This document shows, one piece after another, positions 31,609-45,306 of a stretch of 64,000 nucleotides of DNA. Position 1 is the first letter of the stretch; every line of letters starts with the position of its first letter. Below the pieces are notes generated by a model. That model did not search any database, was not told where the DNA came from, and worked only from the letters and a program-made list of their open reading frames with translations. A program made the position numbers and the translations under genes. Source of the stretch: an uncultured Fodinibius sp. (lineage in GTDB: Bacteria; Bacteroidota; Rhodothermia; Balneolales; Balneolaceae); assembly GCA_913056235.1 (NCBI GenBank), contig CAJXMW010000003.1:310001-374000 (forward strand), in the 5' to 3' direction.

Positions 31609-32733
31609 CTAAGTTGTCGATTTGCGATATCTGAAAATGGCTGCCGGCAGGATAAGCGCTGCCATAAGGGTTAGCCCACCCACCAGGTGTTGCACTTCCG
31701 CCCAGCCGGCTCCTTTCAAGAGAACCATGCGCATTATTTTGATAAAGTATGATATTGGATTTACGAGCGTAAGATCTTGAGCCCAGGGGGGCATGCTTTC
31801 AATCGGGGTAAAGAGCCCACCCATCAGAATAAAAACTACCATGATAAACCAAGCGATAAACATGGCCTGTTGCTGTGTATTGGTAATTGTAGAAATGAAC
31901 AGACCAATACCTTCAACTACAAGCAGATAGATACCCGCGATTGCAAAAAGCAGCCATACACTACCCACGAACGGGATATTAAAACCGAATCGGGCTATCG
32001 CCAATCCCAGCCCAAGCTCAAATAGTCCAATAATCCAAAAAGGAAGCAGCTTGCCCGTGATGAATTGATACCGCTTGATAGGCGTCACATTCAACTGCTC
32101 GATGGTACCGATCTCCCGCTCACGAACGATATTCATCCCCGACAAGAACATCCCGATCATAGACACCAATACTACCAAAATGCCCGGCACCATGTAGTTG
32201 ATATAATCCAGGTTGGGATTGTACCAGCTGGCAGGCGTTATCTCGATTCCTTGCTGGCTTTGACTCGATAACTGTATGTTGGAGACCGTCGGCTGAACTT
32301 CGGAACTAAAATCCTGAATAATAGATCGGCCATATCCCTGGATCAGTCCTGCTGTTACTCCATCTACCGCATCGATATTCATCTGTACCGAGGTCCCACG
32401 GCCGGAAGAAAGCTGCTGCTCAAAATCCTGGGGAATAACCATCACCATGCGCACATTGTTGGCACGTATCTTTTGGAGACCTTCATCTACATCAGATGAA
32501 CGGCTTTTCAGCTTAAAATAACCCGAGGCCTGGAATTTGTTGACGAGTTGTTGTGAAGCAGTGGACTGATCATAGTCAACAAGATGGAAATCAACTTCGC
32601 GTAACTCGTAGGTAGCAGCAAAAGAGAGCACTACCAGCTGCACAACCGGCATCAAGAATATAATCGGCAGCATCCCCTTGTTACGGAAAATCTGCAGAAA
32701 CTCTTTTTGTAGTAAAAATTTAATTATTCTCAT
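31609..32733 (-). CDS. ABC-2 type transporter permease (YbhR/YhhJ-like)
   Basis: A 374-residue inner-membrane permease. One TM at residues 22-42 is followed by a large periplasmic domain (residues 45-170) and five C-terminal TM segments, the ABC-2 export layout. The segment GMNIVREREIGTIEQLNVTPI is the conserved coupling-helix region. Paired with the 374-residue permease at 32841-33965, it would form the membrane part of a HlyD-dependent exporter like E. coli YbhFSR. It is the last gene of the efflux operon before pheA. Confidence 0.93.
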   Translation of the reverse strand: MRIIKFLLQKEFLQIFRNKGMLPIIFLMPVVQLVVLSFAATYELREVDFHLVDYDQSTASQQLVNKFQASGYFKLKSRSSDVDEGLQKIRANNVRMVMVIPQDFEQQLSSGRGTSVQMNIDAVDGVTAGLIQGYGRSIIQDFSSEVQPTVSNIQLSSQSQQGIEITPASWYNPNLDYINYMVPGILVVLVSMIGMFLSGMNIVREREIGTIEQLNVTPIKRYQFITGKLLPFWIIGLFELGLGLAIARFGFNIPFVGSVWLLFAIAGIYLLVVEGIGLFISTITNTQQQAMFIAWFIMVVFILMGGLFTPIESMPPWAQDLTLVNPISYFIKIMRMVLLKGAGWAEVQHLVGGLTLMAALILPAAIFRYRKSTT

Positions 32734-32774
32734 TAGTGTCTAATTATATCATTCATAAACTCTTTTCCGCATTC

Positions 32775-32842
32775 AGCTATCAGCAGTCAGTTGCTAATTC
32801 TACTTTTGGTAACTGATTCCTAAAAGCTGAGCGCTGATAGCT
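32775..32842. repeat. AGCTATCAGC palindromic repeat inside the efflux operon
   Basis: Perfect 10-bp arms AGCTATCAGC (32775-32784) and GCTGATAGCT (32833-32842) with inner pairing CAGTT / AACTG. It fills the gap between the two permease genes and overlaps the stop codon of the upstream one. It belongs to the same family as 27084-27138. Confidence 0.65.
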
Positions 32843-33965
32843 ACTCAAGTCTCACTTTAAAACTTCTCACGCTCAGAGCGATAAAACCGATGGTCATTAC
32901 TGCAAGAATGAGCGTTTCTTTCCAGACGAGTAACAAGCCCGAATCCTTGAGCATGATGCTCCGCACAATGATCAGGAACCAACGCGCAGGAATAATGTTA
33001 CTTATCCACTGCAGTATTACCGGCATGCTTGAAATAGGAAAGATGAATCCCGACAACAGTACTGTAGGCAACAAAAGTCCCGCCAGTGAAACCATCATGG
33101 CCGTCTGCTGATCACTGGCACGTGTTGAGATAAAGACACCCAGCGCCAGCGCAGTAAAAATGAACAACAGCGACTCGGCCAGAAACAGACCATAAGACCC
33201 TCGAAACGGTACTTCAAAAACCCATCGGGCCAAGGCTAGAACAGTGAGTACATTGACAAAAGCCAGCACCAAATACGGCAATACTTTGCCGATGATGATC
33301 TGCCCCGGCCGTAAGGGCGAAACGAGCAAAATTTCCATGTTGCCCATCTCCTTTTCGCGGGTGATAGAGATGGAGGTCATCAACGCAGATATAAGCATCA
33401 ATATTACGGCGATAAGTCCTGGTACAAACAGGTTTACGCTCTCCAGCTTTGGATTGAAGAGCATATTCACATTCGTCGTGATCCCTCCCCTTTGCAGTTT
33501 ACTATTGTCGGCCAGCCGCTGCTGAAAATCCACAATGATCGAGGAAGAATACTGCTGGATGAGTTGTGCCAAGTTGGGATTCGAGGCATCCGTAATAATA
33601 TTTACCGTAGGCTTCTCGCCGCGATTCAGCTTTCGAGCAAAGTCGGATTCAAATACCAGTACTTCGTCGATCTCACCCTGCTGAAACAGCTCCTCGATTT
33701 GATCATACCACTGAATTTCACCTTCAATGGCAAAGTAATTTGATGCATCAATCTTGCTAATCAGTTGGCGCGTAACCTGATCATGCGAGGCATCCAGTAC
33801 CATCACCTTGGCATTCTCTACTTCGTTTCGGATGGCAAAGCCAAATAGCAGCATTTGGATGATAGGCATCCCAAACAGCACCAGCAGCGTTCGCTTATCG
33901 CGATAAATCTGCTTGAACTCTTTTATGACAAATCCTTTAAATGCTTGCATTTCTTCAGTGATCAA
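32841..33965 (-). CDS. ABC-2 type transporter permease (YbhS-like)
   Basis: A 374-residue permease with the same plan as its neighbour: an N-terminal cytosolic and TM start (IYRDKRTLLVLFGMPIIQML), a periplasmic domain to about residue 170, and five TM segments. TSISITREKEMGNMEILLVSPL is the coupling region. The Asp/Asn-rich ITDASNPNLAQLIQQYSSSI segment is typical of YbhS. The two permeases are the same length but clearly diverged, consistent with a heterodimer. The upstream ATPase gene is 515 bp away because an antisense S23 gene lies between. Confidence 0.94.
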   Translation of the reverse strand: MITEEMQAFKGFVIKEFKQIYRDKRTLLVLFGMPIIQMLLFGFAIRNEVENAKVMVLDASHDQVTRQLISKIDASNYFAIEGEIQWYDQIEELFQQGEIDEVLVFESDFARKLNRGEKPTVNIITDASNPNLAQLIQQYSSSIIVDFQQRLADNSKLQRGGITTNVNMLFNPKLESVNLFVPGLIAVILMLISALMTSISITREKEMGNMEILLVSPLRPGQIIIGKVLPYLVLAFVNVLTVLALARWVFEVPFRGSYGLFLAESLLFIFTALALGVFISTRASDQQTAMMVSLAGLLLPTVLLSGFIFPISSMPVILQWISNIIPARWFLIIVRSIMLKDSGLLLVWKETLILAVMTIGFIALSVRSFKVRLE

Positions 33966-34068
33966 TGTGTCAGTTAACAGTATTTCAGATTCCTTTGTAA
34001 GGAGTCTGTTTCCAGCAGCTCTTACTTATGTAATTGAAATATTAGTTGAACCTATCTCCGAGTTTGTT

Positions 34069-34416
34069 ATGGATAATAATCTATACCAAAAAGCCTATGC
34101 TTTTGCTATTCGTGTGGTCAATGCATACAAATTTTTGAGCAAAGAAAAACAGGAATAGACATTGTCCAAGCAACTTCTCCGAAGCGGAACAAGTATTGGT
34201 GCCAATATTGCTGAAGCCAATGGTGCCATTTCAAAAGCTGACTTCTCTGCCAAACTCTCTATCTCATATAAAGAATGTTTGGAAACCAAGTATTGGTTAT
34301 CACTTTTACATGACACAGATTTCATCAATGACAAATTATTTGAAAGCATGCATGAAGATGCTGACGAACTAGCTAAAATTTTGTTTACCATCATCAAAAA
34401 ATCACACATCGCTTGA
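34069..34416 (+). pseudogene. Four-helix-bundle (S23 / 23S rRNA-intervening-sequence) protein, interrupted by TAG
   Basis: Translation from ATG 34069 gives MDNNLYQKAYAFAIRVV and KFLSKEKQE, then TAG at 34156-34158. In the same frame it continues with TLSKQLLRSGTSIGANIAEA, KADFSAKLSISYKECLETKY and more, to TGA-class stop at 34414. Together these make one complete S23 family protein of about 115 residues. Family members usually read E-Y-x-L-S-K-Q here, so a Tyr codon has probably become TAG. Other genes in the window (radA, the S9 peptidase) end in TAG, so it is a real stop. The second half could restart at TTG 34162. The gene is antisense inside the ABC efflux operon. Confidence 0.85.
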
Positions 34417-34480
34417 ACCTTGTATTTTAATTAAACCCTGAATTCTAACGGTACACTGACACACTGTTCACTGTAAACTG

Positions 34481-35221
34481 TCATTCCCTTCTTTTTGCTC
34501 CTCTTGCGAGGGTGATAAAAACTTCTTCAATATCTTCAGCGTTATACCTTTCTTTCAATTCGGCCGGGGTATCCATCGCGTCAATACGTCCATCAACCAT
34601 GATGGAAACGCGATCGCAATATTCTGCTTCATCCATATAATGTGTCGTTACAAATACCGTGGTCCCCTCATCGGCCACTTTATAAATCTGCTCCCAGAAC
34701 TGCCGACGCGTGATAGGATCTACACCACCAGTAGGCTCATCCAAAAACACGATCTGGGGCTCGTGGATCAGGGCTACCGAAAACGCCAGTTTCTGTTTCC
34801 ATCCCAGCGGAAGCGAGCCGATCTTTTGATTCTGCAGGTCCTGCATATTAAGCATGCTGATCAGATCATCCGACTTCTGCTTAATCTGCTGATCAGCCAG
34901 CCCATAAATACCACCATAAAGACGAATATTTTCGCGCACCGTGAGATCTTCGTACAACGAAAACTTTTGACTCATATAGCCAATCTGCTTCTTGATCTGT
35001 TCGGCTTGAGAATACACGTCAAAACCGGCTACCGTCGCTTCACCTTCGGTGGGAACAAGCAAACCCGTCAGCATTCGCATGGCCGTGGTCTTGCCTGCAC
35101 CATTGGCCCCGAGGAATCCAAATATTTCACCGCGTCCCACTTCAAAAGAGATATGATCCACGGCTGTAAAATCACCAAACATACGGGTCAGGTTTTCCGC
35201 TTTTATCATTGGTTCAGCCAT
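34481..35221 (-). CDS. ABC transporter ATP-binding protein (second ATPase of pair)
   Basis: A 246-residue nucleotide-binding subunit. Walker A is GANGAGKTTAM, Walker B is IVFLDEPTGGVD and the H-loop is in VTTHYMDEA. The signature motif is atypical, LPLGWKQKLAFS instead of LSGGQ, as I recall for the second half of E. coli YbhF. It overlaps the upstream ATPase gene by 8 bp, so the two are translated together and probably form a heterodimer equivalent to the fused YbhF. It drives the two ABC-2 permeases. Confidence 0.95.
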   Translation of the reverse strand: MAEPMIKAENLTRMFGDFTAVDHISFEVGRGEIFGFLGANGAGKTTAMRMLTGLLVPTEGEATVAGFDVYSQAEQIKKQIGYMSQKFSLYEDLTVRENIRLYGGIYGLADQQIKQKSDDLISMLNMQDLQNQKIGSLPLGWKQKLAFSVALIHEPQIVFLDEPTGGVDPITRRQFWEQIYKVADEGTTVFVTTHYMDEAEYCDRVSIMVDGRIDAMDTPAELKERYNAEDIEEVFITLARGAKRRE

Positions 35222-36158
35222 GAGACACCTCCTGCTCCATCAGCCGGATAAACGTATCCTCAATGTCTGGCGCGATTTTCTTTATTTCTGGATGACTGAT
35301 TCCCTTCGAGGTCAGGTATTTGCGTAGCTCTGCAGAATCCGCATCCGGACGTTGATCGGTATAATGCACATATTCACCAAAAGGTTGCACCGAATCCACG
35401 TAGTCATAATCGCGAAGTAGGTTTATCAGGCGATATTTATTTGACGCCTTGATAGCCCAAAGATTGCTTTCGAATTGGTTATTCACTTCACCGGGCGTAT
35501 CAATGGACAATATTTTACCCTCCTGCATAAGCGCAATGCGATCACACTGCTCGGCTTCGTCCATATAAGGAGTAGATACCAGGATGGTAATGCCTTCTTT
35601 CCTCAATCGATGCAACATCTGCCAGAACTCTTTGCGAGATACCGCATCAACGCCGGTGGTGGGTTCATCCAAAAAGAGTACTTCTGGTTTGTGGATGAGC
35701 GCACAGCTGAGGGCAAGCTTCTGTTTCATTCCCCCGGAAAGATCGCCCGCCAGTCGGCTTTTAAACGGCTCCAGCTGGCTATAAATAGGCTTGATAAGAT
35801 CGTAATTAGCCTCGATAGTTGTCCCAAACACGGAAGCAAAAAATGACAGATTTTCTTCTACCGAGAGATCCTGGTAAAGTGAAAAACGTCCGGGCATATA
35901 TCCCACCCGTGGGCGAATTTCACGGTAATCATCCACTACATCCAACCCTAGCACTGAGGCTGTCCCGGCATCCGGTTTCAGCAGTGTTGTCAGAATGCGA
36001 AAAATGGTGGTTTTACCAGCGCCGTCGGGACCAATAAGGCCGAAGAGTTCTCCCTTCTCAACTTCAAATGAGATCTCCCTGACCGCCTCTAGGGAGCCGT
36101 ATCGCTTGACAATATGTTGAACGCTAATTGGTTTCATAGTTTTGGTATTTGATATCAA
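35214..36158 (-). CDS. ABC transporter ATP-binding protein (first ATPase of pair)
   Basis: A 314-residue ATPase. Walker A is GPDGAGKTTI, the signature LSGGMKQKLAL is canonical, Walker B is VLFLDEPTTGVD and the H-loop segment is STPYMDEA, with Pro-Tyr where His is usual. A C-terminal extension of about 90 residues ends in DIEDTFIRLMEQE, typical of drug-export ATPases. It overlaps the next ATPase by 8 bp. A 77-bp gap holding a palindromic repeat separates it from the HlyD gene. Confidence 0.95.
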   Translation of the reverse strand: MISNTKTMKPISVQHIVKRYGSLEAVREISFEVEKGELFGLIGPDGAGKTTIFRILTTLLKPDAGTASVLGLDVVDDYREIRPRVGYMPGRFSLYQDLSVEENLSFFASVFGTTIEANYDLIKPIYSQLEPFKSRLAGDLSGGMKQKLALSCALIHKPEVLFLDEPTTGVDAVSRKEFWQMLHRLRKEGITILVSTPYMDEAEQCDRIALMQEGKILSIDTPGEVNNQFESNLWAIKASNKYRLINLLRDYDYVDSVQPFGEYVHYTDQRPDADSAELRKYLTSKGISHPEIKKIAPDIEDTFIRLMEQEVSHG

Positions 36159-36165
36159 GCAAACA

Positions 36166-36229
36166 TGTCATCCTGAACTTGTTTCAGGATCTTAAATTAC
36201 AGATGCTGAAATAAATTCAGCATGACACG
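36166..36229. repeat. Facing pair of palindromic repeats (CCTGAA / GCTGAA arms)
   Basis: Two related units face each other: TGTCATCCTGAACTTGTTTC followed by AGGATCT (36166-36192), and GATGCTGAAATAAATTCAGC followed by ATGACACG (36202-36229). Each has its own stem (CCTGAA/TTCAGG and GCTGAA/TTCAGC). The C-to-G change in one arm is matched in the other arm, which keeps the stem. The pair also folds as one large hairpin between HlyD and ATPase genes. Confidence 0.75.
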
Positions 36230-36235
36230 AAAAAC

Positions 36236-37135
36236 TTAAAAGTTCACCTCTCCAGGCATGCCAATCTTTAGGACACCATCGGGATTGGGCACTTTCACCT
36301 TCACGGCATACACCTGCGTTACACGCTCCTCTTTGGTTTGAATCATCTTGGGAGTAAATTCAGCTTCGGATGCAATCCAACTGACTCGTCCATTGAACTG
36401 CTGGTTCTGCTCGGCATTTTTGTCCACAAGCACTTCCACATCTTGCCCCAGCGAAACCGACGGTAACTGGGCACCACTGATATACACCCGCAATTCCAGT
36501 GTATCCAAGTTTGCAATCTGATAAAGGGGCTGCCCTCGTTGAACCAGCTCATGGGGTTCCACAAAGGTGGTCAACACCCTGCCCTTGATCGGATTAACGA
36601 TTTGTGCATCCTCAATTTGATCTTGAAGCTGTGCAAGCTGGGCTTCGGTAGCAGCAACTTCTGCGCGAACAGACAGCTTTTGCGTCTGTAGTGCATCAAT
36701 CTGCCGGCGGGTCGTACGGACGTGGGCCTCCGCATCATCGAGCTGCTTCTGAGTGGCCGCTCCATCCTTCATTAACGACTGGATTCGATTCAGATCATTT
36801 TGAGCACGTTCCAGCTCGCTTTTTTGCACCTCCACCTGTGCATTAATATTGTCGATTTTTGAACCAATGGATTTTAACCGGGCCTGCAGTTCATCTCTTT
36901 GCAATACAAGTTTACTTGTATCAATCAATCCCACCTGCATTCCGGCTTGCAGCTGACTCCCCTCGCTAGCACCAAACTTGATCAACTTGCCGGAGGCTTC
37001 ACTGGATATGGTCGTTTCGGTAGCCTCAAACTGGCCATACGCATCAGACTTTTCGTTGCCCGAGCAAGCGTTCAAAAACAGCACCAGAATGATTGGTAGA
37101 ATGAGACGGTACTTCTCAATTTTTACTTCGTACAT
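36236..37135 (-). CDS. HlyD-family periplasmic adaptor, lipoprotein
   Basis: A 299-residue membrane-fusion protein linking the inner-membrane ABC exporter to the TolC-like channel. The signal sequence ends in the lipobox LNAC (Cys near residue 24). The lipoyl half ETTISSEASGKLIKFGASEG is followed by a long alpha-hairpin coiled coil (residues about 70-180), the second lipoyl half PIKGRVLTTFVEPHEL and a beta-barrel domain. The layout resembles YbhG. Starts 2 bp after the TolC-like gene stop. Confidence 0.93.
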   Translation of the reverse strand: MYEVKIEKYRLILPIILVLFLNACSGNEKSDAYGQFEATETTISSEASGKLIKFGASEGSQLQAGMQVGLIDTSKLVLQRDELQARLKSIGSKIDNINAQVEVQKSELERAQNDLNRIQSLMKDGAATQKQLDDAEAHVRTTRRQIDALQTQKLSVRAEVAATEAQLAQLQDQIEDAQIVNPIKGRVLTTFVEPHELVQRGQPLYQIANLDTLELRVYISGAQLPSVSLGQDVEVLVDKNAEQNQQFNGRVSWIASEAEFTPKMIQTKEERVTQVYAVKVKVPNPDGVLKIGMPGEVNF

Positions 37136-37137
37136 GG

Positions 37138-38427
37138 CTATTCCGTTGAGTTGTTTGAAAGTCCAAGTGTTGTGTGATAGTCTACTTTAGCACGAATGAG
37201 TTCAGTCTTGTGCATCTGCATTGACAATCGCGCCTGCGTAGCTTTATTGAGCTCAGTGATATATTCAGTAGCCGTAGCAGCTCCGTTTTTCATCTGACTG
37301 GATACGGACTTCACGACCTTCTGCCGCAAATCAATAACCTGCTGATCACGTGTAATTTGATCCTCAAGCGATTTCATACGCTGGCGTATTTTAATGAGCG
37401 ATGCACGTAACTGCCGCTCAAAAGCCCGCTCTTCCTGTTGGATATTCTTCTGCTGCATCGAGAATACTTTCTGCTGAATAGCTGCATTTTTAGCTCCCCA
37501 CAAATTCCACTTTACCTGCAGACCCACGATGTAATACGGATGCAGATCGTTCTCAAAAACATTAAATCCCGGACGACCATAGGCAGCCGTACCAAAAGCT
37601 GATAGCGACGGCCACTTATTTGTTTGAGCCAGCTCTTTCTGGTAATCCAGCGCCCTGCGATTCGTTTTATACAGCGAAAACTCGGGCCGCAGCTGTACCA
37701 ATGAATCCTGTTGGTTAGCAGGAACCTGATAATCAGGGAGTGCCAGCGAAGTCCCAGAACTAACCTGCTCATCAATCAGTTCTCCCAGCACCTCATAGCC
37801 CGACTGTATATTAGAGTTGATTTCTGCAGAGTCTTGCTGTGCCTTCACCAGTTCGGCTTCTAGAATATGTTGTTGATCAGCCAACAGCACTCCATTCTTC
37901 ACCTTAGAGTGCACACTTTTAAGTTGAGCGCGCAGACTTTTCAACATTGTTCCTACGATCTGGAGCTGTTGTTGAGCAAGCAATATCCCGAAATAAACCT
38001 CATTAACCTGCTCTTTAATCTTATGCAACTGAATCTGGGTAGATTTCTGCTGTGCTTGTCCCTCAATATCTTTCAATTTCTTTTTGATGCCCACCGCTCC
38101 TCCATTATAGATCGACTGGCTAACTTCCATCGTCGCCTTATATTGATCCTTGCTCAAATCCGGGCCACTAAAAGGCATGTTCGATGGAAACTGTAGCTCG
38201 GCTACTTCCGATTGGTAGGAAGCCGAAACTCCAAAATTGAGCTGTGGATAAGAGGCGGTATTTGCAATTCTTTTGTTGAGGTCGGTAATCTGTTGCTGCA
38301 GATCAATTTGTCTGGCCAATGGATATTCACTTTCAATCTGTGAATAACAGTATTCCAGACTTAATGAATCTGGAGGGGTAGGCTGTAAACTTCCGAATAG
38401 AATTGTAAAAACAACAGCAACTAGCAT
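37138..38427 (-). CDS. TolC-family outer-membrane efflux protein
   Basis: A 429-residue outer-membrane channel subunit. A short signal sequence is followed by two repeated coiled-coil and beta units with the TolC-family start YCYSQIESEYPLARQIDLQQ, the NLWG segment around residue 310 and long amphipathic helices rich in Gln. It would complete a tripartite path with the HlyD adaptor and ABC-2 permeases. It lies 7 bp downstream of the TetR gene and 2 bp before the adaptor. Confidence 0.93.
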   Translation of the reverse strand: MLVAVVFTILFGSLQPTPPDSLSLEYCYSQIESEYPLARQIDLQQQITDLNKRIANTASYPQLNFGVSASYQSEVAELQFPSNMPFSGPDLSKDQYKATMEVSQSIYNGGAVGIKKKLKDIEGQAQQKSTQIQLHKIKEQVNEVYFGILLAQQQLQIVGTMLKSLRAQLKSVHSKVKNGVLLADQQHILEAELVKAQQDSAEINSNIQSGYEVLGELIDEQVSSGTSLALPDYQVPANQQDSLVQLRPEFSLYKTNRRALDYQKELAQTNKWPSLSAFGTAAYGRPGFNVFENDLHPYYIVGLQVKWNLWGAKNAAIQQKVFSMQQKNIQQEERAFERQLRASLIKIRQRMKSLEDQITRDQQVIDLRQKVVKSVSSQMKNGAATATEYITELNKATQARLSMQMHKTELIRAKVDYHTTLGLSNNSTE

Positions 38428-38434
38428 AACGAAC

Positions 38435-39040
38435 TCATTTCTTTACGGCATTTAGGATAAACTTTGGCAACTCCTTCTTCCGCGCTTCCAAAAATTGATG
38501 ATACTGCTCCTCATTCATCTGGAAAACAGTTTTAATCATGGGCTGCGCAAGCACCGGAAACACGCAAAGTCCAATGGTGTTGATGATAAATTCCTGTGGC
38601 TGGATGGACTTCATTTCGCCGGCTTCAATCTCAGCCTCAATCTGCTTGACAAATTTTTCAGGCACCTCTACGCCCATCCCCTCAACAAATTCTTTAAAAC
38701 GGTCGGGATGCTGATTCATCTCGTGAATCACAAATCGTGGGAGATGCGGCTGTTGCCTGAACATATCATAATAGGTTTCCACCAGCTTCTCGATCTTGGG
38801 AACGAGCGCTAAATCAGAATTTAATACTTTAAAAATGACCGGAAAAAATTGACGCACGCTCTCCTGAAACACTTTCTGGAACAGCTTGTCCTTACTGCGG
38901 AAATAGTAATGCAGCATTGATTTATTTATACCTGCCTCATCGGCAATTTCCTGCATCCGGGCCCCAGAAAATCCCTGCTCCTGGAAAACCCTTTTAGCAG
39001 CTTCCAGAATTTGTTCTTCTGTTTCCAATTCTTCGGGCAT
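38435..39040 (-). CDS. TetR/AcrR family regulator of the efflux operon (CecR-like)
   Basis: A 201-residue repressor. The N-terminal HTH reads EEQILEAAKRVFQEQGFSGA, MQEIADEAGINKSMLHYYF and RSKDKLFQKVF. The ligand-binding half is all helical with a hydrophobic pocket. It is the first gene of the TolC-HlyD-ATPase-ATPase-permease-permease transcript, so autoregulation is likely. The gene order parallels E. coli cecR-ybhGFSR, with an added TolC. The ligand is unknown. Confidence 0.94.
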   Translation of the reverse strand: MPEELETEEQILEAAKRVFQEQGFSGARMQEIADEAGINKSMLHYYFRSKDKLFQKVFQESVRQFFPVIFKVLNSDLALVPKIEKLVETYYDMFRQQPHLPRFVIHEMNQHPDRFKEFVEGMGVEVPEKFVKQIEAEIEAGEMKSIQPQEFIINTIGLCVFPVLAQPMIKTVFQMNEEQYHQFLEARKKELPKFILNAVKK

Positions 39041-39151: not shown

Positions 39152-39184
39152 AAAACCCCTTCAGAAACATCCTGAAGAGGTTTT
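39152..39184 (-). terminator. Rho-independent terminator of the AAA+ ATPase gene
   Basis: A 13-bp stem with one mismatch (39152-39164 with 39172-39184) and a 7-nt loop is followed on the minus strand by T-rich sequence. It lies 23 bp past the stop of the ATPase gene and isolates it from the TetR operon. Confidence 0.85.
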
Positions 39185-39207: not shown

Positions 39208-40920
39208 TTATCCGATACGCAGCTTCAAATTCTCGATTTTTTCGAGAATTTCACCGCGGTCCATTTCCTGATATCGTTCGGGTAGAAGCTCCTTGGAGGT
39301 ACATTCAATGACAGCACTGAGTGTTTGCAACTCGATTTCTTCGGGATAAGTTGGGGGGAGAAAATCATTGAGTGCCACATCCAAAATCTCAGGTGTAACT
39401 TTTTGCTTGTCATTAGCCGCTGCCCTGAACTTAGCGCGGGTCAGCGCCGCCTCCATATCCGCACCCGAAAACGTTTTGAGTCCCTGTTCAATGAGCTTTG
39501 GAACATAGTCTTCGGTGAGCTTTAGCCCTGTTTTCTTTTTCATGGCTTCAAACAACTCCACCCGCTCTTCCTGGGTATGGGGAGGAAATAAAGCAAGGTG
39601 TTCTTCTGCCCGTCCCTGCCGCTTCAAATCCACCGGCATCAGGTCGGGACGCGCCGTCATTAAAAACCAGATAATTTCACCCCGATTGCTTGTATCGCTC
39701 ATAAATGAGGCAATTTGGGAGAATACCCGACTTGATACCCCACTGTCACCACTGGCATCACGATCGCCCAGATAGGCATCGGCCTCATCTATCATCACCG
39801 CCACCGGTGCCATAGCCTTGAGCAATCCCAGAATCTTTTCCAGATTACCTTCGGTAACACCCTGCCACTGACTGCGGAAATTTTTCAGTTTCACCATCGG
39901 GATTCCCACTTCACTCGCAAAGCAAGTAACCATAAACGTTTTTCCGGTTCCTACCGGACCACAGACCAAATAACCCATGGGCAGCACATCCTGGTTGCCG
40001 TTTTTAAGGGCCTTTACGGCATGACGCAGATGTTCTTTCACCTTCGTATGACCAGCAACATTATCAAGGTTGTACTCTGTCTCCACGAATTCCAACAGTC
40101 CATAGGCCTCGGCTTCAATAAGCTCTTTCTTGGCCTCGGAGAGACGATTGTGAGTAATCGTTTCATTATTTTCTCGGGCATTAGACAGGATCCCACGCAA
40201 GTTAATAAAGTTCAAACCCGCCGTCTGCTGAGCCATCACCCGTTCGTTCACCTCGGATATCTGTTTAAACTCATCGCCCGGAGACTGATGCTTTATAAAT
40301 TTAATCCGCTGTTCCTGGTTGGGAATATTGATTTTGATTTCACTTGTGTACGGGTTTTGCACCAACGTTTTGTTGAGGTCGGCCAGATTTTCGGTGATTA
40401 ACACCGTCGTAAAGTCTGCCGCCAAAAACATCGGATCGTGCGCCCAGCGTGAAAGGTAAACCAGCGAGGTCCGATCTTCCGATCCTGTCGACCCAGCCTC
40501 ATTCATCGGCACGATGGTATCGGCATAATCGACAATCAGGGCGATACTTTTCTTATTATCGATGCGTACACGAAAATACTGCTCAAGCAGCGAAAACACC
40601 CGCACAGGATCTTTGGGTAGATTATTGGCATAATCGGTGCCCATCAGCGAATCGCGTCCAGATAACGCCTGGTTAAAATCTTTTTGGCTCTCCTGGTCAC
40701 GAAAATAAATACCTGAAGACCGGTCATAGAAAATGACGTAATCACGTGCCCCGAAAAACTCCTCTGATAAAAATGATTTCAACCGTACGAAATCGGTCCC
40801 CTCTTTGCGCTCTAGGGGTACCAAGTCGTGCACGTTGCCATGCAAGATAAATTGATTGATCGTACGACTTAAATACTTCTGGGCAAATTCAACGGCCCAT
40901 TTGGGATAATGATCAAACAT
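39208..40920 (-). CDS. AAA+ ATPase with degenerate N-terminal AAA-like domain
   Basis: A 570-residue cytosolic ATPase. Residues 1-270 look like an AAA fold without a P-loop: NQFILHGNVHDL replaces Walker A and SIALIVDYADTI resembles Walker B. The active domain has Walker A GPVGTGKT (321-328), Walker B VAVMIDEAD (373-381), sensor-1-like FLMTARPD, and the arginine-rich RQGRAEEHLALFPPHTQEE. This two-part plan recalls Ycf46-type ATPases, though that match is by eye. It is the last gene of a same-strand run from pspA. A link to PspA remodelling is inferred only. Confidence 0.88.
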   Translation of the reverse strand: MFDHYPKWAVEFAQKYLSRTINQFILHGNVHDLVPLERKEGTDFVRLKSFLSEEFFGARDYVIFYDRSSGIYFRDQESQKDFNQALSGRDSLMGTDYANNLPKDPVRVFSLLEQYFRVRIDNKKSIALIVDYADTIVPMNEAGSTGSEDRTSLVYLSRWAHDPMFLAADFTTVLITENLADLNKTLVQNPYTSEIKINIPNQEQRIKFIKHQSPGDEFKQISEVNERVMAQQTAGLNFINLRGILSNARENNETITHNRLSEAKKELIEAEAYGLLEFVETEYNLDNVAGHTKVKEHLRHAVKALKNGNQDVLPMGYLVCGPVGTGKTFMVTCFASEVGIPMVKLKNFRSQWQGVTEGNLEKILGLLKAMAPVAVMIDEADAYLGDRDASGDSGVSSRVFSQIASFMSDTSNRGEIIWFLMTARPDLMPVDLKRQGRAEEHLALFPPHTQEERVELFEAMKKKTGLKLTEDYVPKLIEQGLKTFSGADMEAALTRAKFRAAANDKQKVTPEILDVALNDFLPPTYPEEIELQTLSAVIECTSKELLPERYQEMDRGEILEKIENLKLRIG

Positions 40921-40973: not shown

Positions 40974-42248
40974 TCAATCCATAATGACAAGCTTCACCGT
41001 CTCGATGCGGCTTGGCGTAGCCTTGCTGATAATCACCTTGTTGCCATCTATCAGCAGCTCTTCGTTGACCTTTGGAATACGCCCCAGGGTATTAATGATA
41101 TAACCGGCTACTGTCTCATATTCACTGGATTCGGCCGGCAACTTAATCTCCGGATATTCTTGTTGCAGATCTTCAATTTCTACACCGCCACTCACGATAT
41201 AAGTATTACCTGAGAGTTTCTTAATAAAATGGTCTTCGGTATCGTACTCGTCCTGGATATCTCCCACAACTTCTTCCAAAAGATCTTCGATCGTTACCAT
41301 ACCGGCCGTGCCGCCATATTCATCAATAACGACAGCAACCGAGATGTTTGAGCTGCGAAATTCCGAAAGCAAATCCTTCGACTTCTGTGTAGCAGGCACC
41401 AGCTTGATGGGACGCATAATCTCGGTCAAATTGTCCGGATTACTGAACAGATCATAAGCAAAAATCACCCCAATGATATCGTCAATGCTTTCTTGGTAAA
41501 CAGGTAGCTTCGAAAAGCCGGAAGAGATAAACAACTTCAGTGTCTCGTCTAGGCTCGTATTCTTTTCTACAGCCACAATATCTGTCCGGGGAATCATCGA
41601 CTCTTTGACACGCTTGTTGGAAAGCTCCAACACATTATGCAAAATTTCAGAGTCTTCTTTATCCAAGTCCTGCCCGCCGGAGTCTCTTAGTTCTTGGAAA
41701 ATTAGTTCCACATCCTGACGGCGAAATACACGACCTGAGCGATCAATATCCGGATTAATAAGTTTAATAATGAAATCCGAACATTTATCTGCTAAAAAAA
41801 TCAACGGACGAAATACCCAGTTACAGATTTGTTGCGGAATGGCGATCACTTTGACCCACCAGTCGGCGTGAATTCGAAACAATGCTTTGGGTATAATCTC
41901 ACCAAAAAGCATAATCACCACCGATGCAATAAAGGTCTGTATCACAAGCACAAGAGCACTGCTCGGCATCGATCCAATCCATCCTTGATACAGCTCGGTA
42001 ATCGGTCCAACCAGAAAAAGGGTCATCAACGTAGCATAAACGACATTCACAATATTATTGCCCACCAATGTCGTCGTCAGAAAAGTCTCCGGATTCTGGG
42101 CAAAATAATTTACCACCCGTCCGGTCCATGAGCTTTTGCGCGACTCAATTTCCAACTTCAACCGATTTGCACTGACAAAGGCAATCTCAGAGCCGGAAAA
42201 AAATCCGCTGAGGATAATGGTAAATACTATAAGGAAGAACTCAGTCAC
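40974..42248 (-). CDS. CNNM / HlyC-CorC family transporter (GldE-like)
   Basis: A 424-residue membrane protein. The N-terminal DUF21/CNNM domain has four hydrophobic segments (start FFLIVFTIILSGFFSGSEIA, with conserved S-G-S-E), followed by a CBS pair (MIPRTDIVAVEKNTSL and SNISVAVVIDEYGGTAGMVT) and a C-terminal CorC_HlyC domain with AGYIINTLGRIPKVNE. Relatives handle Mg/Co efflux, or in Bacteroidota are called GldE. It starts 106 bp after the enoyl-CoA hydratase gene and is followed by the AAA+ ATPase after 53 bp. Confidence 0.94.
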   Translation of the reverse strand: MTEFFLIVFTIILSGFFSGSEIAFVSANRLKLEIESRKSSWTGRVVNYFAQNPETFLTTTLVGNNIVNVVYATLMTLFLVGPITELYQGWIGSMPSSALVLVIQTFIASVVIMLFGEIIPKALFRIHADWWVKVIAIPQQICNWVFRPLIFLADKCSDFIIKLINPDIDRSGRVFRRQDVELIFQELRDSGGQDLDKEDSEILHNVLELSNKRVKESMIPRTDIVAVEKNTSLDETLKLFISSGFSKLPVYQESIDDIIGVIFAYDLFSNPDNLTEIMRPIKLVPATQKSKDLLSEFRSSNISVAVVIDEYGGTAGMVTIEDLLEEVVGDIQDEYDTEDHFIKKLSGNTYIVSGGVEIEDLQQEYPEIKLPAESSEYETVAGYIINTLGRIPKVNEELLIDGNKVIISKATPSRIETVKLVIMD

Positions 42249-42354
42249 TTGATATATTTAATAATTACTTGGTAAATCTTTGTGATTTCTACGAGCTACT
42301 TTGTGTAACAACTGTTTCACAGAGAACCACAGAGCAGCACACACTTTCACAAAG

Positions 42355-43134
42355 TTATTTGCCCTTAAAGTCGGGTTTGCGTTTTTCGAGGAATGCCGAT
42401 GTTCCTTCCATCACATCTTCAGTTTCGCATAGCTGCCCAAACAGATCCGCCTCAACCTGGTATCCTGATTGATGATCTGCGTGGTAAACCGCTTTGATAG
42501 CATTGCGAATGGCAATAGGCCCATTTTTCAGAATCTTTTTAATTAATGATCGTGCCGCTTCGGCGGCATCTTCTTTGGTCACATCATTAACCAGCCCCAT
42601 CTGCTGGGCTTCATCGGCTTTCACTTGCTTGCCGGTTAAAATCATTTCGAGCGCACGCGATCGTCCAACGAGTTGTGTAAGTCGTTGCGTTCCACCATAA
42701 CCGGGAATAAGTCCCAGCCCCACTTCCGGCAACCCAAAAGCCGCATTATCGCTGGCAATACGCAAGTGGCAAGCCATCGCTAATTCGGCCCCACCTCCAA
42801 GTGCGTACCCATTCACTGCGGCCACAACGGGTTTCCGGGTATCCTCGATGAGTTGAAAAATCTGCTGCCCTTTCTGTGAAGCCATGCGTCCCGACCGATT
42901 GTCGAGCTCTCGCAGCTCGCTGATATCAGCGCCGGCCACAAAGGCCTTATCTCCGGCCCCCGTCACGATGACGGCTTCGATATCTTCATTTACCTGTATA
43001 GCTTTAAAAACATCAGCTAATTCGTTCAGTAGGTTGTCATTCAGTGCATTGAGTTTATCAGGACGATTAATCGTAACTGTAGCAATGCCATGATCATCCG
43101 TTTCAAAGAGGATCGACTGGTAAGACTGGCTCAT
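42355..43134 (-). CDS. Enoyl-CoA hydratase / crotonase
   Basis: A 259-residue crotonase hydrating 2-enoyl-CoA in beta-oxidation. The oxyanion-hole segment is KAFVAGADISEL. Both catalytic Glu sites are present (GGGAELAMACHLRIA and GLPEVGLGLIPGYGGTQRL), so it is a true hydratase and not an isomerase relative. The C-terminal part FLEKRKPDFKGK is typical. It stands 9 bp downstream of the 297-residue membrane coiled-coil gene, within the pspA run. Confidence 0.95.
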   Translation of the reverse strand: MSQSYQSILFETDDHGIATVTINRPDKLNALNDNLLNELADVFKAIQVNEDIEAVIVTGAGDKAFVAGADISELRELDNRSGRMASQKGQQIFQLIEDTRKPVVAAVNGYALGGGAELAMACHLRIASDNAAFGLPEVGLGLIPGYGGTQRLTQLVGRSRALEMILTGKQVKADEAQQMGLVNDVTKEDAAEAARSLIKKILKNGPIAIRNAIKAVYHADHQSGYQVEADLFGQLCETEDVMEGTSAFLEKRKPDFKGK

Positions 43135-43143
43135 AAGATTGAA

Positions 43144-44037
43144 TTATTCTTTAACGCGATTCGGAGTGTCAATTGTATCCGATTCGGATTCTTGTTCCTG
43201 TTCTTTTTCGATTTCCAAAAAATCCGAATCTAAGTCAATATCATCAAGGTCGGAATGTATGGGTAGAATATCGCTGTCCAGATCATCGATAATTTTTGAC
43301 GTCTCTTCTACTTCTTCAAGCAGATTATCAAGCTGAAAGCCAATTTCTTCGGGATTACTCATCGTCATGGACTGTTCATAAATATATCGAATAGCGTCTT
43401 CGATGGTTTCCAGGTGCGTTTCACAGATCAAATACTTTTCTTTGGCTATCTCAAATTTTTTGAGCCGCTTCTTGAGAATTCCCACTCGCCGCGCCTTGGT
43501 ACGTTTCAAGCGATCCGATTTCATGTTTTCAATCTTACGCTCTTCTTCCTGTACTTCACGTTTCAGGCTCTCTTCGACCGACGTATTCATATACAGTTGA
43601 TAACGCTTGTGCAGATCTAGCAGCGTTAAATAGTTGGAAATAAGCTCTTCAACCTTTTTGCGGATATTTTCAAGCAGGCCTTGTGAGCTATAGGGCAATT
43701 TGTCGAAGTTCTCTTTGATTAGCTTGGCAAGATGTTTAAGCACCAAAAATCGTTTTTTACTTTTTTGGTCCAGCTCCTGGAAGGTCGACTTTTCTTCGGC
43801 CGCCGGATTTCGCTCGCGCAACTTTCGGAGCTTCACATTCTTGCGGAACCGAGGCAACCGCGGCACAATACCAAGATACATCAGCTCTACGCCAAATGTC
43901 ATTGTTAAAATGAGATTAGAAACCAGTCCCATTCCACTCAGGGCAAATGCTGAGATAGTGGACACCAGCAGCACCCCCATATTCAGCGGGTGCAAAAAGG
44001 CTTCTCGTGTAAAGTTTATGGATTTGTCTTCACTCAT
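43144..44037 (-). CDS. Unknown membrane-anchored coiled-coil protein of the pspA cluster
   Basis: A 297-residue protein. Residues about 17-60 form two closely spaced TM helices (MGVLLVSTISAFALSGMGLV and ILTMTFGVELMYLGIV). The remaining 235 residues are highly charged and helical, with long predicted coiled coil, and end in an acidic tail (SDLDDIDLDSDFLEIEKEQE). I know no family name. Gaps to neighbours are 6 bp upstream and 9 bp downstream, so it is co-transcribed with the 153-residue coiled-coil gene and pspA. A membrane-proximal partner for PspA is inferred. Confidence 0.7.
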   Translation of the reverse strand: MSEDKSINFTREAFLHPLNMGVLLVSTISAFALSGMGLVSNLILTMTFGVELMYLGIVPRLPRFRKNVKLRKLRERNPAAEEKSTFQELDQKSKKRFLVLKHLAKLIKENFDKLPYSSQGLLENIRKKVEELISNYLTLLDLHKRYQLYMNTSVEESLKREVQEEERKIENMKSDRLKRTKARRVGILKKRLKKFEIAKEKYLICETHLETIEDAIRYIYEQSMTMSNPEEIGFQLDNLLEEVEETSKIIDDLDSDILPIHSDLDDIDLDSDFLEIEKEQEQESESDTIDTPNRVKE

Positions 44038-44043
44038 AATCTG

Positions 44044-44505
44044 CTAATGATCTTCCTTGGATTCTGTACCGGCCGACTCATCCTCTGGTAGTTCGGGAGA
44101 ACCTCTTCCGATCGTTTTATTCATGTTCATCGAATCAGCCTGCCGTTCGATTTCCTCGTATAGCAACCCCATCTCCATTTTTACCTGGCGCAGAGTATCT
44201 TTGGCCTTGGCTTTAGTCATTTCTTCGTCCAGCTGTTCCTCCGATTTCGTCGGGGTCTCATCAGACAAGTTGTCCATAGCAACGTCCAGCCGTGCTTCAA
44301 CGGATGCCAGTTTATGCTTCACGGAATACAGGAAACTATCGAAAGACTCCAGCATCTGGCTCTTATCCATATTTTTCAGGGCCTGCGTGATATTCTGGGT
44401 CTTCTTGGCGCGGGAATGCTTCTCCTTTATCTCACGCATCTTACGATAGTGCGTCTTGTACTCTTCCTTTAATCGTTCCCGTTCGCTGCGACTGTCGCTG
44501 GCCAT
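44044..44505 (-). CDS. Unknown soluble coiled-coil protein of the pspA cluster
   Basis: A 153-residue, highly charged all-helical protein without TM or signal sequence. Segments such as RERLKEEYKTHYRKMREIKE and SFLYSVKHKLASVEARLDVA show heptad patterns. The C-terminus is acidic and probably disordered. The middle RLDVAMDNL resembles the region of PspA reading ARMEMALDSV, so it might be a divergent, shortened PspA-like partner; this is a by-eye impression. It lies 12 bp after pspA and 6 bp before the membrane coiled-coil gene. Confidence 0.65.
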   Translation of the reverse strand: MASDSRSERERLKEEYKTHYRKMREIKEKHSRAKKTQNITQALKNMDKSQMLESFDSFLYSVKHKLASVEARLDVAMDNLSDETPTKSEEQLDEEMTKAKAKDTLRQVKMEMGLLYEEIERQADSMNMNKTIGRGSPELPEDESAGTESKEDH

Positions 44506-44517
44506 ATCTGTTCCTGC

Positions 44518-45306
44518 CTATGATTTAGACCGTTCCTTATTACCGATTGTCTTGTTGGATTCCTTCTCTTTCTCAGAAGCTTCCTCTTCGATCTCGATCT
44601 CTCCGTCAGAAGATCCAACACTTTTCTCTTTGTCCGGAGCTTCTACCTTGCCCATATCAGTCTTAAACTGCTTGACCAATTCCTGGGCACGTAACTTTTC
44701 GGCATTAGCTTCAATCTCCATGGTTTCGGTATCTACGCTGTCGAGCGCCATTTCCATGCGGGCTTCGTTCTTGGCGGTCTTTTCATTCAAGCGGTTGAGC
44801 ATCTCATCGTGCGTCTGATCCAATCCGCCGGTTTCGAACTGTTCAAGCGCATCAGCCACCTTGCCCTGCCATTCGGCCCGCTCGCTGGCACGCAGTGCTT
44901 CCTTGGCTTCCTGTATCTTGCGATCTTTCTCACGGACAAACGCCTTCTTCACCTTCAGCGCTTTCTCGTAAGCCTGCTCGGCAAATTCGAGCTGCTCCTT
45001 CGACGTCGACAAATTCTCTTTTGCCTGCTCGAGTTGCATAGCATATCCCTCGGCAATATCGTCCCGGTCAGCATTAATAGCCGACTTAATTTTTGCCGTC
45101 AGATCTTCGATCCGTTTTTCATACTTCTTTACTTCTTTCTGAAGCATGATCATATTCGCCTTAACCGTAGCGATATTTTCGTTCATCTGGGGAATCTGAT
45201 CGTTGAGATCCCGGATATTTTGCTCCAGAATAAGCTTTGGATCTTCCATTGAGCTTATAAATCCACCAAATAGCGACTTGATTGCACGAATAAATCGTTT
45301 AAACAT
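44518..45306 (-). CDS. pspA: Phage-shock protein A / IM30 family (bacterial ESCRT-III)
   Basis: A peripheral inner-membrane protein that polymerises on damaged membranes. At 262 residues it has the amphipathic N-terminal helix MFKRFIRAIKSLFGGFIS, the family segment EDPKLILEQNIRDLNDQIPQ, the long alpha1-alpha2 hairpin and the later ARMEMALDSVDTE helix. An extra acidic, Lys/Ser-rich tail of about 45 residues extends beyond the usual PspA end. AAAGGA lies about 10 bp before the ATG. A candidate promoter sits at 45352-45381. It begins the run with two coiled-coil genes. Confidence 0.93.
   Translation of the reverse strand: MFKRFIRAIKSLFGGFISSMEDPKLILEQNIRDLNDQIPQMNENIATVKANMIMLQKEVKKYEKRIEDLTAKIKSAINADRDDIAEGYAMQLEQAKENLSTSKEQLEFAEQAYEKALKVKKAFVREKDRKIQEAKEALRASERAEWQGKVADALEQFETGGLDQTHDEMLNRLNEKTAKNEARMEMALDSVDTETMEIEANAEKLRAQELVKQFKTDMGKVEAPDKEKSVGSSDGEIEIEEEASEKEKESNKTIGNKERSKS

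Follow-up and report, generated by a model that had tools for sequence, protein, structure and literature searches.

A conserved pspA gene cluster of the Balneolales and Rhodothermales encodes a truncated PspA paralogue, a common tail motif and an AAA+ ATPase that may remodel the PspA polymer

The window analysed here is a stretch of 64,000 nucleotides from an uncultured Fodinibius sp. (order Balneolales), and on its minus strand lies a gene cluster that begins with pspA. The original prediction described pspA and two coiled-coil genes as closely spaced, and when we re-read the minus-strand coordinates, lengths and gaps from the sequence this description held: the three genes lie on the same strand, encode proteins of 262, 153 and 297 aa, and are separated by 12 bp (pspA and the 153-aa gene) and 6 bp (the 153-aa and 297-aa genes). 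The features of the locus, in window coordinates, are as follows:

44518-45306, minus strand: pspA, 262 aa, first gene of the cluster, encoding the sole PF04012 protein of the genome
44644-44934, minus strand: PspA residues 125-221 (late alpha3, alpha4, alpha5), homologous to the 153-aa protein by profile-profile alignment
44614-44625, minus strand: additional tail-motif copy (KSVG) further upstream in PspA, read from the sequence and present in close relatives
44542-44553, minus strand: KTIG tail motif of PspA, residues 252-255, seen in the sequence
44044-44505, minus strand: 153-aa soluble coil gene, a probable truncated PspA paralogue
44155-44457, minus strand: stretch of the 153-aa protein (residues 17-117) with homology to PspA 125-221
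44107-44118, minus strand: KTIG motif of the 153-aa protein, residues 130-133, seen in the sequence
43144-44037, minus strand: 297-aa membrane coil gene, with an N-terminal two-TM hairpin followed by long cytosolic helices
43942-43989, minus strand: first predicted TM helix, residues 17-32, from the AlphaFold model and hydrophobicity
43858-43926, minus strand: second predicted TM helix, residues 38-60, from the model and the sequence, followed by a positively charged stretch
42355-43134, minus strand: ECH (enoyl-CoA hydratase/isomerase family) gene, found in the cluster of most relatives
40974-42248, minus strand: CNNM/CorC-type membrane protein gene with CNNM, CBS and CorC_HlyC domains, a conserved cluster member
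39208-40920, minus strand: AAA+ ATPase gene, 570 aa, last gene of the cluster
39152-39184, minus strand: terminator-like hairpin of 15 pairs, then T-rich, 23 bp 3' of the AAA+ gene

The trio had been proposed to form a compact three-gene unit. The trio is indeed present, but the unit is larger, as the ECH, CNNM and AAA+ ATPase genes also belong to it: the ECH gene begins 9 bp beyond the 297-aa gene on the same strand, and the CNNM and ATPase genes come next. These three same-strand genes, together with the hairpin behind the ATPase gene, indicate that the unit extends past position 43144. The gene order of the cluster on this reading is pspA, short coil, 2-TM coil, ECH, CNNM and ATPase, with putative co-transcription. 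A terminator-like hairpin behind the ATPase gene was also present in one relative and was not found in most of the relatives checked. Plus-strand ORFs in the region of the three genes were not supported; the conserved frames are those of the minus strand. The absence of PspB, PspC and PspF applies to the locus but not to the whole genome, which has two PspC-domain genes elsewhere, unlinked to pspA (G000:C2:48964-49134 and C4:208172-208348). Behind the cluster, at window positions 31609-39040 and on the same strand, lie TetR, TolC-like and HlyD-like genes, two ABC ATPase genes and two ABC-2 permease genes (all named by eye), which are likely an efflux set.

PspA is a bacterial member of the ESCRT-III proteins, and members of its family polymerise on membranes. 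The 262-aa protein matched PF04012 over residues 2-209 with 65.6 bits (cut-off 33.9), and it is the single PspA of this 4.0-Mb genome. Neither of its two coiled-coil partners had a significant match in Pfam or NCBIfam, in agreement with their earlier description as uncharacterised. For the 153-aa protein, PF04012 gave no match at E up to 5, and over 40 members of the short-coil family it was absent from the 25 commonest families. Profile-profile comparison with hhalign gave a different picture: the short-coil profile was collinear with PspA residues 125-221, with an E value of 7e-13 when 14 sequences were used and of 2e-16 (probability 98.7, score 105) with 40 sequences. Control PspA profiles that had been reversed, column-shuffled or shuffled in heptad blocks scored only 15, 19 and 28, respectively, compared to 105 for the real profile, and coiled-coil composition was thus ruled out as the source of the match. 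The profile alignment and its controls make the 153-aa protein, which had been called a PspA-like small coil, almost certainly a partial paralogue of PspA.

In the AlphaFold prediction for the 153-aa protein, three helices (residues 2-45, 48-82 and 86-128) precede a disordered tail, with a pLDDT of 80 and a pTM of 0.36; because of the low pTM, the packing of the helices in this model is not to be trusted. The three predicted helices and an alignment that starts from PspA residue 125 leave no place for the ESCRT-III alpha1-alpha2 hairpin. With helix labels taken from the known PspA layout (PMC11746142) and from the alignment, the protein covers the last part of alpha3 together with alpha4 and alpha5, and both the membrane-binding helix alpha0 and the alpha1-alpha2 hairpin are missing. 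A fold search with the 153-aa model returned no trustworthy match; it listed no ESCRT-III chains, which proves nothing. When PDB sequences were searched with profiles of the short coil, the 2-TM protein and PspA, no useful match came up.

For the 297-aa protein, the AlphaFold model (pLDDT 83) consists of a membrane hairpin and long antiparallel helices, and so matches the two N-terminal TM helices and long coil that had been predicted from the sequence. This topology makes membrane anchoring by the 2-TM coil plausible. Its best named matches were from Fodinibius/Aliifodinibius. Kinship with PspA was not supported (profile comparison probability 2-6%), and neither was kinship with Snf7, which matched only 1 of 48 family members (E 0.011). 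A fold search with the model gave Z scores of about 11 for F-BAR and unrelated helical chains alike, and comparison with CdvB2 gave a Z score of 8.3 (rmsd 4.3, 142 residues aligned), all of which fall short of what is trusted for helical bundles. The 2-TM gene is split by a stop or frameshift in one Balneolaceae genome that consists of a single contig (G070:C1:2082558-2083438).

We then analyzed how the cluster is conserved across the Balneolales/Rhodothermales class. The 2-TM protein was present in 54 of 59 relatives and in 141 of 146 class genomes, PspA was found in 142 of the 146, and most of them had a full-length or nearly full-length ATPase. The original prediction would have fallen if homologues of the two coils lay mostly away from pspA, but both stay beside it. 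Among 60 fetched class loci, which were chosen via the 2-TM or PspA gene so that the figures describe linkage given presence, 59 carry the 2-TM gene after pspA in the same orientation, G015 alone having lost it, and in 44 the short coil lies between the two. The latter figure includes L105, where the short coil had seemed to be missing; this was rejected, as the DNA encodes one with an EKTIGR tail that the profile had overlooked. A second, independent genome scan, whose 80 listed loci partly overlap with the 60, contained PspA in 78 loci, the short coil in 72 and the ATPase in 51; the two loci without PspA stop at a contig edge, and several of those without the ATPase are likewise cut by contig ends. 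Where labelled, the 80 loci were almost all from Balneolales or Rhodothermales. The ATPase ends the cluster in most of the order. Across the class the identity of the 2-TM protein falls to about 30%, while gene order and spacing persist. It is highly probable that the pspA cluster is one functional unit. The ECH and CNNM/CorC-type genes (window 40974-43134) are persistent pspA neighbours class-wide, and CNNM is retained in lineages without ECH.

Within the sampled phylum, the 2-TM family was confined to this class, except for one marginal match and a genome outside the class, G371, in which a relative of the 2-TM coil (E 6e-25) stands directly before the ATPase gene and is followed by another coil, of 236 aa (L210:5752-9412). 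On another contig of G371 (L217), a near-copy of this 236-aa coil immediately precedes pspA, and the PspA encoded there has KEIGP near its C-terminus.

The C-terminal AAA+ cassette of the cluster's ATPase matched PF00004 with 84.6 bits, and with Walker A (GPVGTGKT) and Walker B (VMIDEAD) intact in the sequence it is active-looking. The extension after this cassette is conserved. The N-terminal region is weakly AAA-like and without Walker A. Outside the order the ATPase gene is unlinked to pspA, and in 5 of 15 such loci (L223, L224, L227, L229 and L232) it is adjoined by an orphan EutN/CcmL (microcompartment vertex) gene, e.g. L227:6915-7193 and L232:4850-5125; a further EutN/CcmL pair was found elsewhere in 3 of the 3 genomes searched from this set. 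This means that the ATPase may have other clients. We saw no convincing further tail-motif proteins beside the unlinked ATPase gene, and no annotated pspA near its homologues on Paenibacillaceae plasmids.

The tail of PspA had been described as extra and acidic. The acidic tail is real, but this description overlooked a conserved motif that PspA has in common with the short coil. In both proteins a variable, mostly acidic linker is followed by [KR][TS][IVLM]G, usually KTIG, and the next residue is most often K, R, N or P. Within the final 60 residues, 100 of 121 unique PspA tails and 104 of 104 unique short-coil tails contained the motif, whereas shuffled tails contained it in a mean of 1.7 (maximum 9) and 1.4 (maximum 6) cases, respectively; because the tail sequences are related, they are not independent observations, and the counts make the evidence look stronger than it is. 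Nevertheless, the motif stands within linkers that can otherwise hardly be aligned. The other four cluster proteins (2-TM coil, ECH, CNNM and ATPase) lacked it in all 373 of their unique tails, and other ORFs had it in 11 of 710 cases. In loci with the ATPase but a motif-free PspA, it is the short coil that has the motif, usually in two copies. We have very little doubt that the tail motif is functional.

Motif and ATPase are also lost together. The ATPase was present in 48 of the 60 class genomes, and all 48 have the motif in PspA and/or the short coil. It was clearly lost in nine, and in all nine both the motif and the short coil are absent. In a tree of the cluster proteins these nine fall into a clade of eight and G015, and the losses in the two are independent; the joint-loss argument therefore counts two independent events only, in both of which the short coil is gone as well. 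The clade of eight retains pspA, the 2-TM coil, ECH and CNNM, so the locus as a whole has not decayed. What remains of the ATPase in G015 is a 58-residue fragment (residues 511-568) behind CNNM, at the old ATPase position. Two lineages (f6 and f18) have no short coil yet retain the ATPase and the PspA motif, indicating that the short coil is dispensable for retention of the ATPase. In much of the ATPase-less clade (L110-L113, L115, L196) KTIG is gone and the PspA tail ends in about (K/N)TVHVNxxNHV, which may be a new docking site; in L071, L074, L114 and L200 of this clade the tail strings diverge further.

We judge the chances to be about even that the tail motif is read by the cluster's ATPase. 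Could something else read it? A protease or adaptor (with the motif as a degron), a Ser/Thr kinase or an unlinked protein would each be a candidate, as a motif with T or S in second place between K and a hydrophobic residue followed by G could be a site of modification or degradation, and in three incomplete genomes (G136, G151 and G160, 89-92% complete) the motif is present and the ATPase was not found. Against this, motif and ATPase are jointly absent in two lineages, and we regard a different reader as rather unlikely. It is improbable that the 2-TM coil is the reader, given that the clade devoid of the motif retains this protein.

From the observed gene order, paralogy, motif and co-loss, we infer the physical interactions and the Vps4-like action of the following model. 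PspA would build the polymer, as known from its family. The short coil would join or cap this polymer via alpha3-alpha5 without extending it and would bring in docking tails. The 2-TM coil would anchor or nucleate the polymer at the inner membrane, as its topology and the strict gene order suggest. The [KR][TS][IVLM]G motif that PspA and the short coil carry at the end of their disordered tails would recruit the AAA+ ATPase, which might then extract subunits and so disassemble or remodel the polymer in the manner of eukaryotic Vps4; co-loss, gene order and precedent point this way. Taken as a whole, this explanation, a PspA-based machine for membrane remodelling or repair with a motif-recruited ATPase, has in our view just under an even chance of being right. 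That the ATPase acts in Vps4-like disassembly is, by analogy, possible but distinctly short of probable.

The coils had originally been suggested to form an alternative anchoring and regulation set for PspA. The part of this suggestion that stands is that the coils stay with pspA, but the ATPase in the cluster and the common tail motif lost alongside it suggest ATP-driven remodelling of the polymer, beyond anchoring alone. A module purely for anchoring or signalling, in which the 2-TM coil tethers PspA, the short coil titrates it and the ATPase is functionally unrelated, would fit with the ATPase-less clade, where pspA and the 2-TM coil adjoin and the pair can thus be retained without the ATPase. 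It also has a precedent in mycobacterial PspM, a two-TM protein encoded beside pspA according to Ravi et al. 2024 (PMC11237479). Such a module does not account for the short coil and the tail motif vanishing along with the ATPase, nor for the ATPase being the closing gene in most of the order, and we consider it unlikely. A stable housekeeping gene order with no joint function is very improbable: the families of ECH and CNNM are broad ones with metabolic or transport roles, and these genes are missing from some lineages, but order and spacing hold class-wide at 2-TM identities down to the lowest seen, and partial paralogy and a common motif link PspA with the short coil.

The remodelling machine that we favour resembles ESCRT-III/Vps4 in its polymer subunits, whose flexible tails carry a short conserved motif at the end, in its AAA+ ATPase and in having more than one paralogous subunit. 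It differs in that the ATPase has no match to the MIT domain at E up to 5 and the short subunit is without alpha0-alpha2. The tail motif is also unlike the known MIMs. With MIT not found and the motif different, we do not claim the cluster as a Vps4 or MIM-MIT member. More tentatively still, it could be a counterpart of MIM-Vps4 made with other docking parts, in which KTIG tails recruit a dual-AAA ATPase, the short paralogue serves as a cap or adaptor and the 2-TM coil as a platform. The proteobacterial PspFABC system has PspA in common with the cluster, whose locus is without pspB, pspC and pspF. The mycobacterial ClgR-PspA-PspM-PspN system also has a two-TM membrane protein beside pspA, but the likeness is one of topology only: no ClgR or PspN was seen at the cluster locus, and PspM is reported to be without homologues outside Actinobacteria.

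How bacterial PspA/Vipp1 polymers are disassembled is an open question. A structural study of PspA from 2024 only suggests chaperones or PspF for this step (PMC11746142), and Ravi et al. describe the control of assembly in PspA homologues without a linked AAA ATPase as unknown (PMC11237479). With a tail motif of four residues that disappears along with a named ATPase, polymer disassembly becomes experimentally addressable, and a natural alpha3-alpha5 fragment of PspA is a tool for asking which helices build the polymer and which limit it.

The closest described loci are in Ravi et al. 2024 (PMC11237479), whose main text notes, in one sentence, that in Bacteroidetes PspA occurs next to Snf7 and a third coiled-coil gene (CBH24266.1). 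Like our cluster, this locus has pspA and further coil genes, one of them described as reminiscent of the PspA coiled coils, and judging by this description it is very likely the same type of locus. Relative to that main text, the truncated paralogy, the common motif, the class-wide conservation and the co-loss with the ATPase are new. The same text describes PspA beside a protein with two AAA+ domains, the N-terminal copy of which is inactive (AEY64321.1), and proposes ATP-dependent remodelling. By description alone this ATPase is of the same kind as ours, and the remodelling proposal is the same; here, in contrast, the ATPase closes a six-gene cluster, and the polymer subunits carry a candidate docking motif.
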